NCBI GenBank assembly: GCA_013329215.1
Contig: DUKS01000001.1
Coordinates: 1-43,814, forward strand
Source of the DNA: Nanobdellota archaeon
GTDB taxonomy: Archaea; Nanobdellota; Nanobdellia; SCGC-AAA011-G17; GW2011-AR17
DNA: 43,814 bases
Direction: 5' to 3'
Positions within the stretch are counted from its first letter, which is position 1; each line of letters begins with the position of its first letter. The notes under the pieces are model-generated. The model worked only from the letters and a program-made list of their open reading frames with translations, had not been told where the DNA came from and ran no database searches. Made by a program: the position numbers and the translations under genes. This document shows positions 4,238-22,466 of the stretch, piece after piece.

Positions 4238-5536
4238 ATGGCAGGATACGAAGATTTCATAGACCTTGGCTACAAGCCGGATTCGCATGACGTGATAGCA
4301 TCATTCAGGGTAAAAGTCCCGAAATGGTCAACGCCAAAAAGAGCGTGGGGCGCTGTTGCGGCTGAAAGCTCTGTGGGAACATGGAGCCCGATGAAGTCAT
4401 TAAACTACAAAAATGTAAAAGCAGTTGCTGCGAAAGTGTTTGAGGCAAAAGGGGAATGGATAAGGATTGCGTATCCTGAAGAGCATTTTGAGCCCGGGAA
4501 CATGAGCCAGATTCTCGCTTCAATCGCAGGGAATGTCTTCGGCATGAAAGCTGTTGACGCGCTGAGGCTTGAAGACATTGAGTTCACAAAAAAGATTGTA
4601 AAGTCTTTCAGGGGCCCGCAGTTTGGAAAGCAGGGCATAAGGAAGATGTTCAAAGCGCCAAAAAGGCCGCTGATGCTGTCTGTTGCAAAGCCAAAGGTTG
4701 GTTTAACCACTGCGCAGCACGTCGAAGTGGGAAGACAGATTTGGGAGGGCGGATTAGACCTGTTAAAAGATGATGAAAACCTGTCAAACCAATCCTTTAA
4801 CCCGTTTGAGAGAAGGGTAAGGGAAAGCCTAAAAGTAAGGGATAGGATAGAAAACAGGACAGGGGAAAAGAAAAGCTACCTCATAAACATCACAGGCCCT
4901 AACATACAGGAGATGGAAAAAAGGGCGAAGTTTATCAAAGCGCAGGGCGGGGAGTATGCAATGATTGACATTATCACAACAGGCTGGGCAGCTGTTTCTT
5001 CTGTAAGGGAAATCTGCCAGGACCTCGGTCTTGCGTTGCACGCGCACAGGGCAATGCACGGCGCAATGACAAGAGTGCCAACGCACGGCTTTTCAATGGA
5101 ATGCGTTGCAAGCTGCGCAAGGCTGCTGGGAGTTGACCAGCTGCACATAGGCACTGCCAACATCGGAAAGCTTGTCGGCTCTGCAGCAGATGTTATTGAA
5201 CTTGAGGATGAGATTACGGCAGAGCATAATGATGAGAACCTAAAGCTGCACTGCCTTGAGCAGGAATGGTTCGGCATAAAGCCCGTTTTCCCTGTTTCCT
5301 CAGGCGGCCTGCACCCGTTGCTTGTTGACAAGGTGATGAATCGGCTTGGAACTGACATAATGCTGCAGATCGGCGGCGGGATTCACGGTCATCCTTCCGG
5401 GAGCTATGCAGGCGCAAGGGCAATGAGGGAAGCTGTCGAAGCGTACATGGACGGAGTAGACCTTGCTGTTGCAGCAAAGAAATGCAAAGAGCTGAAGGAA
5501 GCATTGGATTATTGGGGAAGGAAAGGGACGAGATAG
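4238..5536 (+). CDS. rbcL: RuBisCO large subunit, form III-type
   Basis: A 432-residue RuBisCO, normally fixing CO2 onto ribulose-1,5-bisphosphate to give two 3-phosphoglycerates. Active-site residues are all visible: Glu43 and Thr48 in AAESSVGTW, Asn99 in GNVFGM, Lys151 and Lys153 in AKPKVGL, the carbamylated Lys177 with Asp179 and Glu180 in GGLDLLKDDE, HAHRAMH at 268-274, His303, loop-6 Lys311, SSGGLHP at 354-360 and GGGIHGHP at 379-386. Residue 313 is Val (GKLVG), where most RuBisCOs have Glu. No small subunit, phosphoribulokinase or other Calvin-cycle gene is present, and archaeal form III enzymes usually serve the AMP/nucleoside salvage pathway. A TATA-like ttatataaat at about 4183-4192 and AAAGGAG at about 4219 precede the ATG. 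Exact subform (III-a, III-b or III-like) is not decided. Confidence 0.93.
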   Translation: MAGYEDFIDLGYKPDSHDVIASFRVKVPKWSTPKRAWGAVAAESSVGTWSPMKSLNYKNVKAVAAKVFEAKGEWIRIAYPEEHFEPGNMSQILASIAGNVFGMKAVDALRLEDIEFTKKIVKSFRGPQFGKQGIRKMFKAPKRPLMLSVAKPKVGLTTAQHVEVGRQIWEGGLDLLKDDENLSNQSFNPFERRVRESLKVRDRIENRTGEKKSYLINITGPNIQEMEKRAKFIKAQGGEYAMIDIITTGWAAVSSVREICQDLGLALHAHRAMHGAMTRVPTHGFSMECVASCARLLGVDQLHIGTANIGKLVGSAADVIELEDEITAEHNDENLKLHCLEQEWFGIKPVFPVSSGGLHPLLVDKVMNRLGTDIMLQIGGGIHGHPSGSYAGARAMREAVEAYMDGVDLAVAAKKCKELKEALDYWGRKGTR

Positions 5537-15382: not shown

Positions 15383-17173
15383 CTAGCCCTTTCTCCTGAA
15401 CATCTTCTCTATCTCATCCTTTGAGAAATGTATTATAATGGGCCTTCCGTGCGGGCATGTCCACGGGCTTTTGCACTTGTCAAGCTCTTTCAATAATGCA
15501 ATTATTTCCGGGACAGAGCATTCATCCCCACCCTTGATTGAAGCCCTGCATGCCATTCTTGTGATTATCGCCTCGTTCAGCGCGCTGAGGGTTGTCCTTT
15601 TGCTGTCAGACAGCTCGTTAAGCACTTCATAGAACAGGTCCTTTGCCTGCACCCTGCCGAACACAGCAGGCACTGTGCGCAGGATAAAAGAATTGTTTCC
15701 AAACTGCTCAACATCAAACCCAAGCGAAGACAATTCAACCGCCTTTTCCATTACAACAGAATTGTCAGCAGGGGAAAGCTCCAGGACCAAAGGCTGCACA
15801 AGCCCCTGCTTTGCAACGCTTCTTGAGGAAAACTGTTCCATAAACTTTTCATACAATGCCCTTTCCTGCACAACATGCTGGTCAATCAGCAGGAAGCCGT
15901 CATCAGCTTCTGCAAGGAAATATGTTTTTGCAATCTGGCCGAGGATTTTCATTGCAGGCAGCTTTGAGAGCTGTACTTTTTCATGCGGGTTAAATGCCTC
16001 GTGCATTATTGTGCTCTGCATCTCTTTGCCAACAACAATAGGAAGTGAAAGAGCCTGCTGCGGCGCAGCATCTGCCTGCGGTTGTAAGCTTTGCTGCGGC
16101 AAAGCATTTGAATACGCGGGCATCGGGCTGCTGCCGAACTTTGAGAAGGGCATATTCTCCTCCTTAATGCTGTAGTCTGTAACCAGCGAGTTTGCCCTCA
16201 GGGTTTCCCTTATTGCACTGAACACAGATTCATACACTTTCAGGGGGTTGCTGAACTTAATCCTGTCTTTTGTCGGATGGACATTCACGTCGACCAGGCC
16301 GGGATTAAGCGTTATATTCAGCACTGCAACAGGGTGCTTGTTCACAAATAGAAGAGTGTGGTAAGCATCATAAAGCGCCTGTGTTATCACCTCGTCTCTC
16401 ACATACCTCCCGTTCACATAAAAGCTCTGGTAATTTCTTTCCGGCTTCAGCATAGAGGGCTTTGAAACATAGCCTGCTACCTGCGCAACAATGCTTTTGA
16501 AGCTGACAGGAAGCATCTGCTTTGCAGTATCTTTCCCGTACACAGAAGTGATATTGTGTATCATGTCCTCGTTGGATGTTGTTGAAAGCAGGGAATGGCC
16601 GTTGTGCGACAGCCTGAATGAAACGCGGCTGTAAATCAGGGCATACCTTGTTACAATGTCCGCTATTGCCTTCAGCTCAATCGCGTCCTGCTTAAGGAAT
16701 TTTAATCTTGCAGGCGTATTGAAAAAAAGGTTGTGCACTTCAATTGTTGTGCCCTTCGGGCAGCCGGCTGTTTTTTCAGAAACAAGCTTCCCGCCCTCAA
16801 CCTCTATTAAAAACCCCTCTGCTGAGTCAGCTGTCCTTGTCGTGATTATTGTCTTTGAAACAGCTGCGATTGAAGCCAATGCCTCCCCCCTGAAGCCGAG
16901 CGTTGATATTGAGAACAGGTCATTAACAGAAGATATCTTGCTCGTTGCATGCCTGACAACAGCAAGCTTTGCGTCCTCTTTTGTCATGCCTGAGCCGTTG
17001 TCGCTTACCGTGATGAGCTCCCTGCCGTAGCCTTTTATTTCAATGTCAATTAATGTGGCGCCTGCGTCTATTGCATTCTCCAAAAGCTCTTTCACGACAG
17101 ATGCGGGGCGCTCTATTACTTCGCCTGCGGCTATCTTGTTGATTAATTCCTCTGTTAGCAGTTGTATTGGCAT
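15383..17173 (-). CDS. mutL: DNA mismatch repair protein MutL, endonuclease type
   Basis: A 596-residue MutL. The N-terminal GHL ATPase is complete: KIAAGEVIERPASVVKELLENAIDAGA, SDNGSGM, TLGFRGEALASIAAVS and NLFFNTPARLKFLK. A Pro/Gln-rich linker (about residues 340-400) leads to the C-terminal dimerisation domain. That domain has DQHVVQERALYE, fitting the nicking-endonuclease motif DQHA(X)2E(X)4E with Val for Ala, and the later ACRASIKGGDE and CPHGRPIIIHF motifs. This suggests a strand-nicking MutL, as in organisms lacking MutH. The ATG at 17173 gives the usual MPIQLL start and has an AGAGGA ribosome binding site. An in-frame ATG at 17203 lies about 23 nt from a TATA-like element and cannot be excluded. 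Confidence 0.93.
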   Translation of the reverse strand: MPIQLLTEELINKIAAGEVIERPASVVKELLENAIDAGATLIDIEIKGYGRELITVSDNGSGMTKEDAKLAVVRHATSKISSVNDLFSISTLGFRGEALASIAAVSKTIITTRTADSAEGFLIEVEGGKLVSEKTAGCPKGTTIEVHNLFFNTPARLKFLKQDAIELKAIADIVTRYALIYSRVSFRLSHNGHSLLSTTSNEDMIHNITSVYGKDTAKQMLPVSFKSIVAQVAGYVSKPSMLKPERNYQSFYVNGRYVRDEVITQALYDAYHTLLFVNKHPVAVLNITLNPGLVDVNVHPTKDRIKFSNPLKVYESVFSAIRETLRANSLVTDYSIKEENMPFSKFGSSPMPAYSNALPQQSLQPQADAAPQQALSLPIVVGKEMQSTIMHEAFNPHEKVQLSKLPAMKILGQIAKTYFLAEADDGFLLIDQHVVQERALYEKFMEQFSSRSVAKQGLVQPLVLELSPADNSVVMEKAVELSSLGFDVEQFGNNSFILRTVPAVFGRVQAKDLFYEVLNELSDSKRTTLSALNEAIITRMACRASIKGGDECSVPEIIALLKELDKCKSPWTCPHGRPIIIHFSKDEIEKMFRRKG

Positions 17174-17351
17174 GTTTTCCTCTTTTGCGTGTCTAATAGG
17201 CATAATTGAATAGTGCCTATTAAATTTTTCGGAAAAATGAGCCAAAATTCCGGTTTTGCTTTTAAAGGAAGAAGATTTTCCGGAAACGCTGGAAAAACGC
17301 GTGCTTTTTTAGGGAAGCGCATTTAAAGGGGGCGAAATAAGGAACTCTGGT

Positions 17352-17783
17352 ATGGGGCAAATGAACAGATTCTATGTTGATTCGTGCATATACATAAACC
17401 TATGGAACAGGGAAGAGACGCGAAAAAAGAAGTGCTGGGAGATAGCTGAACAGTTCTTCAGCAGGCACTAGCATGACAGGATATATTATTCTGGATTTGT
17501 AATGAAAGAGCTTCAGTTTATTCTTACTGCAGATGAATTCAATAAAAATCGGCTAACAATAATTATGCAGCAAAATTTCAGGCGGATTTTTCTTTCGGAT
17601 AGGGAAATGGCATCTGCAAGAAAAATAGAAGCGGAAATTAATTATGAAATAAGCTTCTATGATATTATTCACATGCTTTTGGCAAAACAGGCAGATGCAA
17701 TACTTATTACAAGGGATCAAAAGCTAATCAAGATAGCGGCCAGATATGGTATCGAGGCAAAAGCGCCTGAAGATGTGTTATAG
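17352..17783 (+). pseudogene. PIN-domain (VapC-like) ribonuclease gene interrupted by an in-frame TAG
   Basis: The frame from ATG 17352 reads FYVDSCIYINLWNREETRKK, the PIN strand 1 with its first catalytic Asp. It then reaches TAG at 17469-17471 after ...FFSRH. The same frame continues as HDRIYYSGFVMKELQF, with the conserved Glu, and ends with YDIIHMLLAKQADAILITRD, holding the last acidic residues. All PIN features are therefore present in one frame, broken only by one stop; no frameshift is needed. A single-base change from AAG, CAG or similar would explain it. Translation from the internal ATG at 17502 would lack the first Asp. A mutated toxin, a sequencing error or readthrough are the options. 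It converges on a ribbon-helix-helix gene, overlapping by 6 nt. Confidence 0.8.
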
Positions 17784-18020
17784 ATTGTTTATTTCATCTA
17801 TATCTATGTTCTGCTTCGACAATATTTTTCTTGCTTTCCTTACAAGACTTACGCCACTTCCTTTAAGCGATACGGTGCCGACTTCTTTTGCCCATACAAA
17901 CCTTCTTACTGCATCCCTTATCACATCAGAGCGGTTTGCATAAACTCCGGAATCAACAAGCGAGTCCATAATCTGCACAAGCCCGTGGCTCATTCTTATC
18001 TGGATAGTGTCCATTACCAT
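17778..18020 (-). CDS. Ribbon-helix-helix (CopG/ParD-like) DNA-binding protein, possible antitoxin
   Basis: An 80-residue protein with a CopG-type ribbon-helix-helix. The beta strand DTIQIRMSHG comes first, then helix LVQIMDSLVDSGVYANRSDVI and helix RDAVRRFVWAKE, with the R-S-D turn typical of the fold. The Lys/Arg-rich C-terminus could contact a toxin. It overlaps the 3' end of the broken PIN gene tail to tail by 6 nt. This is not the usual co-directional antitoxin-toxin order, so pairing is only inferred from adjacency. The start at 18020 has a TATA-like tttatataag about 22 nt upstream; the second Met (18014) is an alternative. Confidence 0.75.
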   Translation of the reverse strand: MVMDTIQIRMSHGLVQIMDSLVDSGVYANRSDVIRDAVRRFVWAKEVGTVSLKGSGVSLVRKARKILSKQNIDIDEINNL

Positions 18021-18401
18021 AGTAATTGAATAGTAATGCTTATATAAAAAGGTTTTGGCAGGCTAATCCACAGTCTTGTCAAGTGGTTGCAGGGCCTGCT
18101 TTCAATGTGTTCTATAAACGCCATGCTCGGCGCGCTATGGAGAAAAGGCCGCCATTGTGGAAAACGGAATGAAACACTGAAAAATAGCGCTCAAATCTGC
18201 AAAAAATCAATGCCACTTGCCATCTTCACGCAAAGGGTTTTTTAACTGCTATGGAAACAGCAATATAGTGAACAAAAAAGAGCGCAGGTTAATAGAAAAT
18301 ATCTATATAGACTGCCTGAAGCTGAAAATAAGGAAGGAGCTCACAGAGTTTGGCGAAGGGCAGCTGTGTATTTGCAGGCTGCTGCTAAAATAGGTCCCCT
18401 A
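18021..18401. other. 381-bp gap without a confident gene
   Basis: The first 25 bases hold the TATA box of the ribbon-helix-helix gene. The rest has open frames on both strands over about 18050-18240 (for example, plus-strand RLIHSLVKWLQGLL with no clear start). A 41-codon frame opens with GTG at 18268 and ends at TAG 18391-18393 (KKERRLIENIYIDCLKLKI...). Neither has a ribosome binding site or recognised family. A decayed gene or mobile-element remnant is possible but not shown. Confidence 0.3.
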
Positions 18402-19196
18402 TTATTCACCCCGATACGGCCCTAAATTTTCATAGGGTGATGCATTATCCCCGTAATACATCTGCTGCTCAAATGAAGCCATGTCAGCCATTTGGCTGTT
18501 TAGCCCTGCCTGGTATCTTTCGGCGCTTTCATTTGATGCCATAAATGCCTCTGCAAATGTAACCCTGCCGTCCTTATTGGCATCGCTCCCTTCATCAAAT
18601 AGTGCCTTTAAGTAATTCCTTGCGCCTGAGAATTCTGTGCTGCTATATGCAGGGGTCCCGGATTCAGTTGATGAAACCCGCACATAGTTGGGCAAATCCA
18701 GGTCCCGGACTATGCTTCCTGAATAGCAGGCGTCAATATAAAGAAAGCCAACTTTTGGGCGTATTTTTTCTATCGCGTCTTCCAGCTGGCCGCTTCTCAT
18801 CATCTGGCTGTCAGCCTCCAGCTCCAATGCAAAAGGGGTCCCGTGGGTGCTGATAACAGCAACAAACGCATCATTGCCGTCCACCTTGCGGCTCAGTTCA
18901 ACCGCAGTTTCTGTAAGCTTGGCGTAAGAAGCGTCAGCCCCATGCAGAAAATGGATATTCTCCCTTTTAAACCCGTTTTGCTCCAGCCGGTCTCGTATCA
19001 TCACCCCGTCAATATAGAACGGGTTCTGGCTTTGCGGAATCCCGTAATAGTTGCCTATATCGCTGCTTCCGACAACAATCAAAGCATATTTATCCTGTAT
19101 ATCGGTTTCTTCTGCAGTCCCCTGCGGGCTATTCGGGCCAAACTGTGTGCCATATGCGCATCCCAATGAAAGCACCAAGGGTAGTAGTTTATTCAT
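18402..19196 (-). CDS. Caspase-like (clan CD) cysteine protease lipoprotein with EF-hand loop
   Basis: A 264-residue exported protein. The N-terminal signal MNKLLPLVLSLGCAYG suggests a lipoprotein with Cys13. The caspase-hemoglobinase core follows: YALIVVGSSDIGNYYG (strand 1), His118 in AVISTHGTP and Cys157 in VGFLYIDACYSGS, the His-Cys dyad of clan CD (C13/C14) peptidases. A perfect EF-hand calcium loop lies at 205-216 (DANKDGRVTFAE). Calcium-dependent activation is known for metacaspases, so a Ca-gated extracytoplasmic protease is a reasonable inference. The substrate is unknown. The gene is divergent from a winged-helix regulator, with repeated GGTAACC sites between them, suggesting joint regulation. 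Confidence 0.8.
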   Translation of the reverse strand: MNKLLPLVLSLGCAYGTQFGPNSPQGTAEETDIQDKYALIVVGSSDIGNYYGIPQSQNPFYIDGVMIRDRLEQNGFKRENIHFLHGADASYAKLTETAVELSRKVDGNDAFVAVISTHGTPFALELEADSQMMRSGQLEDAIEKIRPKVGFLYIDACYSGSIVRDLDLPNYVRVSSTESGTPAYSSTEFSGARNYLKALFDEGSDANKDGRVTFAEAFMASNESAERYQAGLNSQMADMASFEQQMYYGDNASPYENLGPYRGE

Positions 19197-19235
19197 TTTG
19201 TACCTGATTAGTGGTTATTATTACCCTAAACACCC

Positions 19236-19243
19236 TTTATAAA
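19236..19243. promoter_or_regulatory. Palindromic TATA element between caspase-like and regulator genes
   Basis: TTTATAAA is self-complementary and the only clear TATA-like element between the divergent ATGs (19196 and 19278). It lies about 40 nt from each, so both transcripts would carry short leaders. Confidence 0.45.
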
Positions 19244-19248
19244 TATTC

Positions 19249-19290
19249 GGTAACCCAAATGGTAACCCCATCTTTTAATGTTTGGTAACC
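19249..19290. promoter_or_regulatory. Three GGTAACC repeats, probable operator
   Basis: GGTAACC occurs at 19249-19255, 19261-19267 and 19284-19290, spaced 12 and 23 bp, roughly one and two helical turns. A related inverted stretch, GGTTATTATTACC, lies at 19213-19225 on the other side of the TATA element. The last copy falls inside the first codons of the regulator if its start is 19278. The arrangement suits autoregulation by the adjacent winged-helix protein. Confidence 0.55.
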
Positions 19291-19595
19291 TCTTTCCCCC
19301 TATGAATGGGCCGGAGCTCCTCTCTTTTGTAATGCGCGCAAAGAACAGAAAGCTTATCCTGGCTTTGCTTGAAAAAGGCCCGAAAATACCTGCGCAAATC
19401 ATGAAAGAAACAGGAATGTACAAAAGCCACACTTCCCGCGCTTTGGCGGAGTTAAGCGGCGAGAAGCTTGTTTTCTGCAGGAACCCCGGGGACAGGGCAT
19501 TCAGGTTTTATGCACTAACCCCTAAAGGCAAAAAAATATTGAAAGCAGCAAGCGAATTGAGCAGGCAGATACAGAAATGGCAGACGAGCATATAG
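19278..19595 (+). CDS. Winged-helix transcriptional regulator (MarR/ArsR-like)
   Basis: A 105-residue single-domain winged helix. The fold can be followed as KNRKLILALLEKGPKIPAQIMKETG (helices 1-2), the recognition helix MYKSHTSRALAELSGEKLV and the wing CRNPGDRAFRFYALTPKGKKIL. No ligand domain is present. It is divergent from the caspase-like lipoprotein gene over a region of GGTAACC repeats, so it most likely controls itself and that gene. The start may be 19278 or the in-frame ATG at 19302. The latter would leave the third repeat outside the coding sequence and keep the whole domain. Confidence 0.82.
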   Translation: MFGNLFPPMNGPELLSFVMRAKNRKLILALLEKGPKIPAQIMKETGMYKSHTSRALAELSGEKLVFCRNPGDRAFRFYALTPKGKKILKAASELSRQIQKWQTSI

Positions 19596-19667
19596 AGAAA
19601 TTACTTAATGCTTAAAAGAGAATATTGCTAAAAGTGCAGCCGCCTTTCTTTTAGGGTTTGATGTTTT

Positions 19668-19712
19668 CTATACCACATCAACCATATCCTTCAAGCGTTT
19701 CTGCTCCACGTG
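19668..19712 (-). pseudogene. Vestige of a second mutS 3' end
   Basis: Read on the minus strand this encodes HVEQKRLKDM, three further codons and a TAG. It parallels the true MutS C-terminus HVEQRRLKDVLGE and its stop, about 100 bp away. The DNA matches at about 29 of 37 positions, with differences mostly at third codon bases. Similarity stops just before HVEQ, so only the extreme tail is present. Confidence 0.5.
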
Positions 19713-19716
19713 ACAA

Positions 19717-19734
19717 CAAACTGCAAACAGTTTG
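19717..19734. repeat. Short perfect hairpin downstream of mutS
   Basis: CAAACTG and CAGTTTG (7 bp) flank a CAAA loop. It lies between the mutS stop and the tail vestige, so it could mark the 3' end of the mutS mRNA or an insertion boundary. No T-run follows closely. Confidence 0.4.
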
Positions 19735-19791
19735 ATCATTTGGGCGACATTCGCTTCGCTCAGTCCCCAGAAACAATTCCTTGTAGTTCTT

Positions 19792-22296
19792 TTATTCACC
19801 AAGCACATCCTTTAACCTTCTTTGCTCCACGTGCATCTTTGCATTCAGCTTTTTCAGCATCTCATCCTCTTCAATGAGCTTCTGCTGCACTTCTGTGGCC
19901 CTTGCGACAACCTCCGCAGGCATGCCTGCGATTTTTGCAACATGAATGCCGTAGCTCTTGTCTGTTCCCCCTTCCAATAATTTCCTGAGGAACACTATGC
20001 TTCCATCTTCTTCTTTCACAGCAATGTTGTAATTCCGCACATTAGGCAGCTGTTCAGCAAGCTTGTTCATGACATGGTAATGTGTTGCAAACAATGTCTT
20101 TGCCTTTATCCTTGAATATATGTGCTCTGCAATTGCCCATGCGATTGCAACGCCGTCAAATGTTGACGTCCCTCTTCCAATCTCATCAAGTATTATCAGG
20201 CTGTTCGAGGTGGCATTGTTAAGTATATTTGCAGACTCAAGCATCTCAACCATGAACGTGGACTGGCCTGAGCTTAAGTCATCCTGCGCCCCCACTCTTG
20301 TGAAAATCCTGTCAACAATGCTGATTTTTGCAGACGAGCACGCAACAAAGCACCCGACCTGCGCCATTAAAACATTCAGCGCAAGCTGCCTCATCACAGT
20401 GCTTTTGCCCGCCATGTTCGGCCCTGTAATTATTGCAATCTCCCCTGTTTTTACGCTGATGTCATTCGGCACAAATGCGCTTTGCAGCCTTTCAATAACA
20501 GGATGCCTTGACTCCAGAAGCAGTATGTCGCCATTCTGCACAATCCCGGGCTTTGCATAGTTGTATTCAATAGCAGCCACTGCAAATGAAGCAAGAACAT
20601 CGATTACAGCTATCTTCCTCGCAGCGTCCTGTATTTTCTCTGCTTTTGTCGTGATTATGGCGAGAATGTTTGAATATATCGTCTGCTCAAGCAGTATGCT
20701 TTTTTCCTCTGCGTTAAGTATAAGCTCTTCCTGCTTTTTCAGCTCTTCAGTGACATACCTTTCCCCGTTTGCAGTCGTCTGCTTTCTTATGTAGGATACA
20801 GGCGCAAGATGCAGGTTTGATTTGCTTATTTCAATGTAATAGCCGAATACCCTGTTGAATCCAATCTTAAGGTTCTTAATTCCTGTCTTTTTTCTCTCTT
20901 CATCCTCAAGCCTTGCTATTATTTCCTTTGCATTTGTCCTTGCCATGTGCAGCTGCGAAAGCTCGGGATGATATTCGGGCCGTATGACACCGCCTTCCCT
21001 TATTATTGAAGCGCAGTCCTCCCTTATTGATGCCCTAACAAGATCTGTGACATCTGAAAAGTCTTCAAAGCTGTACGCGTCAAGCAGGACGTTGTCTTCC
21101 TTGTCTTCAAGCATCTTTGACACGAAATGCACAAGCTCTTTTTTCAGCAGGCTTGCATTCTCAAGCGACTGCCTTAACGCCAGTAATTCCCTGGGCATTG
21201 CTGTTGAAGCGCTCGCCCTGCTTATTATTCTTTCAACATCAGCTATGCACTTCAGTATCGCAAGAATCTCCTCCCTCAGCATGCTGCTTTTTTTCAGCAG
21301 CTCAACAGCATTCAGCCTCCTGTTGATTTCCTTTGCATCCAGCAGCGGCTCCTTAACCCATTTTTTCATTAATCTTGAGCCCATCGGGGTAAGGGTTTTG
21401 TCCAGCACTGAAAGCAGCGTGCCCTTTGCAGTGCCATCGCGGAGGTTGCGCATCACTTCCAGGTTCCGGATTGTCGAGGCATCCATAACCATCCTATCGT
21501 TTCCCGCAAGCTTCGAAATTTTGTTTATGTGCGGCAGGGCTTTCATCTGCGTGTCCTGCAGGTACCGGATTAATGCGCCTGCAGATGTTATTGAAGAATC
21601 ATCGTCCCCTATTCCAAAGCCCTGAAGCGTGGGCACTCTGAAGTGCGATAGCAGGTAATTGTTTGCTGTTTCTTTCCTGAAATGCCTGTCGTCATACTTT
21701 GCAATGAATATGTCATTCTTCTTCAGCATGTTAAGCAGGTCCGCGTCAACTGCAAGCGAATAAGGGATTACGCATTCAACAGGGCTGAACCTTGTTATAA
21801 GATTTTGCAGCATCCTTGTTTCGCCTGATGTTACAATAAATTCGCCTGTGGACGCATCGCACAATGCGGCAGAATAGCTTTCCCCGTTCACAAACAGGGA
21901 AAGAATGTAGTTGTTTGCTTTCATATCCAATAATGAGTCTTCCATCACAGTGCCGGGAGTGACTATCCGCACAATGTCCCTCTTTACAAGCCCTTTTGCA
22001 AATTTCGGGTCTTCCATCTGCTCACATATCGCCACCTTGAATCCCTTCTTCACAAGCTTCGCAAGGTAAGGCTCAAGAGCATGGAACGGGATTCCTGCCA
22101 GCGGCGCTTTTTTCTCACCGCTTCCCCTGCTCGTAAGGGTTATTTCAAGCGCTTTTGACACATTGACTGCATCTTCATAGAATGTTTCATAAAAGTCGCC
22201 CATCCTGAACAGCAGCACGCAGTCAGGGTGGCTATGCTTAAACTCAACATACTGCTTCATTGCAGGCGTTAAGTTGTCAGGGTTTAGTTCTTCCAT
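19792..22296 (-). CDS. mutS: DNA mismatch repair protein MutS
   Basis: An 834-residue MutS1. Domain I opens with TPAMKQYVEFKHSHPDCVLL and holds the mismatch-wedge FYE motif in FRMGDFYETFYEDA. Connector, lever (MGSRLMKKWVKEPLL) and clamp regions follow. The ABC-type ATPase has Walker A GPNMAGKSTVMRQ, signature region DDLSSGQSTFMVEM, Walker B LIILDEIGRGTSTFDG and ATHYH. The C-terminal HTH region ends in VEQRRLKDVLGE. The ATG at 22296 is chosen because it gives the conserved MEELNPDNLTP start. It also lies about 22 nt downstream of a TATA-like ttatatta; longer in-frame starts up to 22356 lack support. With mutL on the same strand it gives a bacterial-type MutSL pair. A short accessory island separates the two genes. 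Confidence 0.95.
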   Translation of the reverse strand: MEELNPDNLTPAMKQYVEFKHSHPDCVLLFRMGDFYETFYEDAVNVSKALEITLTSRGSGEKKAPLAGIPFHALEPYLAKLVKKGFKVAICEQMEDPKFAKGLVKRDIVRIVTPGTVMEDSLLDMKANNYILSLFVNGESYSAALCDASTGEFIVTSGETRMLQNLITRFSPVECVIPYSLAVDADLLNMLKKNDIFIAKYDDRHFRKETANNYLLSHFRVPTLQGFGIGDDDSSITSAGALIRYLQDTQMKALPHINKISKLAGNDRMVMDASTIRNLEVMRNLRDGTAKGTLLSVLDKTLTPMGSRLMKKWVKEPLLDAKEINRRLNAVELLKKSSMLREEILAILKCIADVERIISRASASTAMPRELLALRQSLENASLLKKELVHFVSKMLEDKEDNVLLDAYSFEDFSDVTDLVRASIREDCASIIREGGVIRPEYHPELSQLHMARTNAKEIIARLEDEERKKTGIKNLKIGFNRVFGYYIEISKSNLHLAPVSYIRKQTTANGERYVTEELKKQEELILNAEEKSILLEQTIYSNILAIITTKAEKIQDAARKIAVIDVLASFAVAAIEYNYAKPGIVQNGDILLLESRHPVIERLQSAFVPNDISVKTGEIAIITGPNMAGKSTVMRQLALNVLMAQVGCFVACSSAKISIVDRIFTRVGAQDDLSSGQSTFMVEMLESANILNNATSNSLIILDEIGRGTSTFDGVAIAWAIAEHIYSRIKAKTLFATHYHVMNKLAEQLPNVRNYNIAVKEEDGSIVFLRKLLEGGTDKSYGIHVAKIAGMPAEVVARATEVQQKLIEEDEMLKKLNAKMHVEQRRLKDVLGE

Positions 22297-22466
22297 ATAA
22301 TACATCTCTTTTACTAATATAATGAAATCCTTACGGGTTTTATGGAGAATATTCAAAGTTTATATAATTATTGATGAAAACATGGAAAAACACAGTCGAA
22401 GCGGTTTTTCAGCAAAACCCTTATAAACAGGTAAAAGATTACTACTTATAATTCAAGGGGTGCGCA

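Follow-up and report, generated by a model that had tools for sequence, protein, structure and literature searches.

A C13-like cysteine peptidase with a conserved EF-type loop beside a winged-helix regulator and its predicted three-site operator in a nanoarchaeal mutL-mutS island

Caspase-like peptidases with calcium-binding motifs have been described in archaea before. Among archaeal orthocaspases, an EF-hand motif was reported in seven archaeal proteins (PMC6426788), and Dx[DN]xDG loops are over-represented among secreted proteins, one of them having been shown to act in folding (PMC3123361). The loop described below is thus of a known kind. The locus analysed here lies on contig DUKS01000001.1 of a Nanobdellota archaeon, where "the window" denotes the whole stretch of 43,814 nucleotides. 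In it, a peptidase gene and the gene for a small winged-helix regulator diverge from a common intergenic region (Table 1). Comparison with related genomes shows the peptidase and the regulator each to be genuine and conserved, as distinct units that meet only in this genome.

Table 1. Features of the locus, in window coordinates
Feature	Position	Strand	Basis or remark
mutL, island flank	15383..17173	-	MutL domains; adjoins mutS in genome G001
PIN-domain toxin-like gene, C-terminal part, in-frame stop	17502..17783	+	PIN 3.4e-5; open homologue in genome G003
RHH antitoxin-like gene	17778..18020	-	RHH_8 1.1e-5
Putative C13-like cysteine peptidase of clan CD, 264 aa, probably secreted	18402..19196	-	Pfam, AF2 model, Foldseek, homologues in phylum and bacteria
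EF-hand-type Ca loop, residues 205-216, DANKDGRVTFAE	18549..18584	-	D205 and E216 invariant
Predicted catalytic Cys157 codon	18726..18728	-	Invariant in alignments A1 and A3
Predicted catalytic His118 codon	18843..18845	-	Invariant in alignments A1 and A3
N-terminal signal with marginal lipobox, MNKLLPLVLSLGC	19158..19196	-	Sequence; comparison with other lipobox-like ORFs from this genome
TATA box, peptidase promoter, TTTATAAA	19237..19244	-	Start at -47 from ATG
Operator site 1, GGTAACC, adjoins peptidase TATA	19249..19255	+	Sequence, alignment
Operator site 2, GGTAACC, at BRE position of regulator promoter	19261..19267	+	Sequence, alignment
TATA box, leaderless regulator promoter, CTTTTAAT	19272..19279	+	Start at -30 from ATG 19302; genome TATA peak, alignment
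Operator site 3, GGTAACC, between regulator TATA and start	19284..19290	+	Sequence, alignment
Winged-helix regulator, 97 aa, recognition helix YKSHTSR	19302..19595	+	ORF readable from 19278; profile matches, invariant helix
mutS, island flank	19792..22356	-	MutS domains; orthologues 74-75% identical

The peptidase and its EF-type loop

The 264-residue protein carries the HG and (D/E)xCxSG dyad motifs of Peptidase_C13 and clan CD, with His118 within "ISTHG" and Cys157 within "DACYSG", and it matches the Pfam family Peptidase_C13 (PF01650) at 6.5e-8 and 32.8 bits, against a curated cut-off of 22.8. His118, Cys157, Ser159, Gly160, Asp205 and Glu216 are invariant in an alignment of ten homologues, and relatives were found both within the phylum and in bacteria. 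An AlphaFold2 model built with nine sequences had a pLDDT of 84.5 and a pTM of 0.86, and Foldseek searches with this model returned legumain and caspase-8 as the top solved structures (E 2e-9, TM about 0.6). Sequence and model together identify a putative clan CD cysteine peptidase with a predicted caspase-haemoglobinase fold. The initial annotation had named this clan and the His118/Cys157 dyad, both of which are borne out, and had proposed structure prediction. Its analogy with metacaspases proved loose: Pfam gave C13 alone, with neither a metacaspase (C14B) profile nor a p10 domain with its Ca-binding Asp, and the fold likewise points to C13/legumain. The peptidase is a well-supported, if unremarkable, member of a known superfamily and carries a conserved Ca loop.

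A scan of genome contigs with the single protein returned no relatives, whereas an alignment query did find them, and the peptidase had no match in PADLOC. Matches to BamA in a phmmer search against solved structures were chance hits, superseded by the fold search. In two other genomes (G002, L077:3977-5565; G001, L011:695-2067), the gene downstream of the peptidase orthologue overlaps it and encodes a trypsin-like protein, secreted and with an ALGC motif, an arrangement that suggests a two-protease operon.

The peptidase is likely to be extracytoplasmic. Its signal consists of a short hydrophobic segment of 12 residues followed by an imperfect lipobox, S-L-G-C, and because both are atypical, "lipoprotein" is a weaker designation than "secreted". 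A lipobox reads [LVI][ASTVI][GAS]C after an h-region, and nine other ORFs in a genome sample pass a simple filter that the peptidase does not. The N-termini of its homologues are mixed: Sec-like in some, lipobox-like in others, or a single hydrophobic anchor. Of the lipoprotein-like signal annotated at first, secretion therefore stands as likely, but the lipobox is marginal.

Residues 205-216 fit the canonical 12-residue EF loop, DxNxDGxVxxxE. To limit circularity, we searched with a profile made from the catalytic part alone (to residue 190) and sought the loop downstream; some bias remains, since the full alignment had served to retrieve the homologue loci. Of 41 distinct homologues, 28 have a DxNxDGxxxxxE loop 45-60 residues past the catalytic Cys (mode 47-48), compared with 1 of 317 background ORFs. 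It is present in nearly all of the strongest homologues and extends to bacterial relatives in the Phycisphaerae, Acidobacteria and Proteobacteria. In the AlphaFold2 model the loop has a predicted helix on either side, 191-199 and 214-230, as a single rather than a paired EF hand; this helix-loop-helix assignment is read from the flanking helices in the model and not from the coordinates of the loop. The EF-hand loop called at first sight is accordingly upheld. It is not accidental but integral to this prokaryotic C13-like branch, a fixed part of one lineage within the legumain/caspase superfamily, and Ca dependence can be addressed by a simple biochemical test.

What the loop does is a separate question. 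Extracellular Ca is rarely limiting, and a structural Ca site, which would constitutively stabilise the secreted protein without gating it, is probably the better account. The wide conservation of the loop is consistent with this, as are the secretory bias of DxDxDG loops and the folding role of one of them (PMC3123361). However, the loop is placed where the catalytic domain's last long helix begins, and Ca bound there could help to order the active site. This judgement concerns the function of the loop alone and is compatible with the two-module explanation favoured below. Gating of the peptidase by Ca is hypothetical.

The winged-helix regulator and its predicted operator

The regulator matches the HVO_A0261_N, HTH_5 and HTH_45 profiles, the first of them below its curated cut-off. 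Weak Csa3/CARF matches in PADLOC cover only the end of the profile where a winged helix would lie. The divergent winged-helix gene had first been read as an ORF at 19278-19595 (+). The gene is retained here with a corrected start, most likely ATG 19302 rather than 19278, because the TATA-like CTTTTAA from 19272 then sits at -30. In a sample of 216 ORFs from the genome, TATA-like motifs are most frequent at -30/-31 relative to the start codon, which matches the expectation for leaderless genes. If translation starts at 19302, the third GGTAACC site is therefore promoter DNA and not coding sequence.

The three GGTAACC sites, spaced by 12 and 23 bp, were recovered as first annotated, and when the 105-bp intergenic stretch was shuffled 20,000 times, no shuffle contained three copies. 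The triple is unique in the 1.416-Mb genome: of its 30 GGTAACC sites, the other 27 are isolated, and there is no other pair. Close homologues of the regulator (61-72% identity) occur in G002, in two copies, and in G003, with the same operator upstream in the form GGTAAC(C/T)-12-GGTAAC(C/T)-23-GGTAACC. A more distant homologue (44-49% identical) in G085, a genome of another family, has the same operator as well. These regulators share an identical recognition helix, YKSHTSR, and all five copies that carry it (G000, G002 twice, G003 and G085) have the 12/23-spaced operator. No such operator was present at four paralogue loci with other recognition helices (L026, L029, L031 and L032), and G001 lacked both the operator and an orthologue of the regulator. 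A search of 371 genomes of the phylum found operator copies in the genus only; G085 lay outside this draw and was reached via the regulator protein. Viral contigs contained no relative of the regulator. One viral contig with the exact operator pattern was discarded as a coincidence, being a phage-like contig with an unrelated array of TTCGGTAACTG-like units.

These comparisons indicate that the GGTAACC sites belong to the regulator and not to the protease-regulator pair, the co-conservation of sites and regulator being the strongest evidence. The regulator-operator unit is a solid and testable prediction, made from recognition helix and sites jointly, in a phylum almost without experimental regulators.

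Two further features of the regulator family were observed. A single Cys that follows the recognition helix, at position 59 in the regulator of the window, is common to all aligned members and is a possible thiol sensor. In addition, related regulators at L107 and L108 (about 1400-1500) have the helix SPSHISR and GTTAAC-type motifs upstream, without GGTAACC, which hints at a recognition code.

On the opposite strand, the TATA position implies an approximately 18-nt leader for the peptidase gene, with AGGT ahead of the ATG. Site 1 lies 4-5 bp from this TATA box, and the GGTAACC sites cover both promoters, so placed that a bound regulator would block both. An A/T element at the position of the peptidase TATA, beside the operator, is kept in all five copies. 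In G002 and G003 it is kept with no divergent gene seen beside it, and there it may serve the regulator's own promoter.

Neighbours in a variable island

In G001, the mutS stop is directly followed by the mutL start (L090:4021-4024), while in the window the two genes are separated by a gap at 17174-19791. Since they are contiguous in G001, the region between them in the other genomes is an island. In the window it holds a PIN/RHH pair, winged-helix genes and the peptidase, and in G003 also ParE/MazE-like genes. The toxin-like PIN gene with its in-frame stop spans 17360-17783, its open homologue in G003 being accompanied by its RHH partner. The island beside a broken toxin gene, as it was first described, is thus corroborated. 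The regulator adjoins mutS in G002 (C36) and G003, as in the window, and an AlbA_2 gene lies near mutL in both. The peptidase appears to be one of the variable contents of this island.

A short ORF, MNKKERRLIENIYIDCLK..., occupies 18268-18395 of the window; a similar ORF in G003 (L117, about 4344-4478) likewise follows a PIN/RHH pair. In G003 and on C165 of G002 (L091, L028), the regulator is preceded by another winged-helix gene in tandem.

The initial annotation had combined the two divergent genes into a dedicated Ca-gated extracytoplasmic protease switch, whose regulator would have evolved to control the peptidase. Their adjacency, the common intergenic region and the conserved EF loop are in keeping with this, but the pair is conserved in no relative. 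Peptidase loci other than that of the window had no regulator and no GGTAACC sites near the gene, and adjacency was found in this window only. When gene pair and sites are followed together into relatives, the sites and the regulator are kept, in five copies, but the pair is found nowhere else. Moreover, the other divergent partner of the regulator is a restriction-modification (R-M) operon: in G085, regulator and operator diverge from a Type III operon of mod (MTase_III 4.7e-141) followed by res (REase_III 1.8e-8; L121:199-5519). A switch dedicated to the peptidase is therefore very unlikely. What survives of the idea that the peptidase is under its own switch is the operator overlapping both promoters, but not a conserved pair.

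We consider it probable that two independent modules stand back to back, and that an autorepressor also controls the peptidase promoter it adjoins. The first module would be an extracytoplasmic C13-like peptidase whose His118/Cys157 dyad cuts its substrate, and whose EF-type loop, placed between the two final long helices of its catalytic domain, would bind one Ca2+ needed by the active fold outside the cell. The second would be the winged-helix autorepressor, which on its three sites would block its own leaderless promoter. The divergent peptidase gene would be repressed as well, since the TATA box of its promoter directly adjoins site 1. It is from the positions of the sites alone that we infer repression rather than activation. 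This explanation has to accommodate an adjacency known from one genome only and an A/T element that is kept in G002 and G003 without a visible divergent gene.

The alternative is that the genes are unrelated neighbours: the regulator would use the three sites to control itself alone, and the peptidase would bring its own unregulated promoter. G002 and G003 do have regulator and operator without the peptidase, and G001 and G002 the peptidase without the regulator; the G002 peptidase has the same TATA-to-ATG distance (about -46) and no GGTAACC beside its TATA. Against this stands site 1, so close to the peptidase TATA, where TFB would bind, that a bound regulator would hardly be neutral. The same divergent position is, furthermore, held by another gene in G085, where mod has a correspondingly placed TATA beside the operator, at about -29; divergent control by the cassette would thus recur. 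On this evidence, unrelated neighbours are the less likely case, though one with real weight. For the back-to-back modules, a link between peptidase and regulator that is specific to this genome is plausible, with the balance leaning modestly in its favour.

The divergent partner of the regulator-operator pair differs between genomes. A broader and doubtful conjecture is that the regulator and its three-site bidirectional promoter make up a portable control cassette in Nanoarchaeota for surface or defence functions, which would serve a Type III R-M operon in one family and would have captured a Ca-dependent surface protease in another. The G085 locus could also represent a winged-helix controller of an R-M system.

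Comparison with known systems

The peptidase resembles family C13 (legumain/GPI8, clan CD) in its catalytic core motif, its His/Cys dyad and its predicted fold. It differs in being short, prokaryotic and secreted, without the legumain prodomain and with an extra EF-type loop about 48 residues past the Cys. With the archaeal orthocaspases that have EF-hands it shares a p20-like caspase domain, but in that survey EF-hands are among additional N- or C-terminal domains, whereas here the loop occupies a fixed position within the catalytic domain (PMC6426788 for the survey). The likeness to Ca-activated metacaspases (C14B) consists of clan CD membership and the suggested link to Ca; the present protein has no identified p10-type Ca site, its Ca loop is of EF type and lies elsewhere, and its Pfam family is C13, not C14.

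The regulator shares a single winged-helix domain and a divergent or autoregulated layout with small archaeal winged-helix repressors (HVO_A0261_N, HTH_5 ArsR-like and HTH_45), from which its operator of three GGTAACC direct repeats, 12 and 23 bp apart, sets it apart. C proteins, the controllers of R-M systems, are HTH_3-type activator-repressors. The regulator and operator opposite the Type III mod/res operon of G085 recall them by gene arrangement, the G085 regulator itself being a winged helix.
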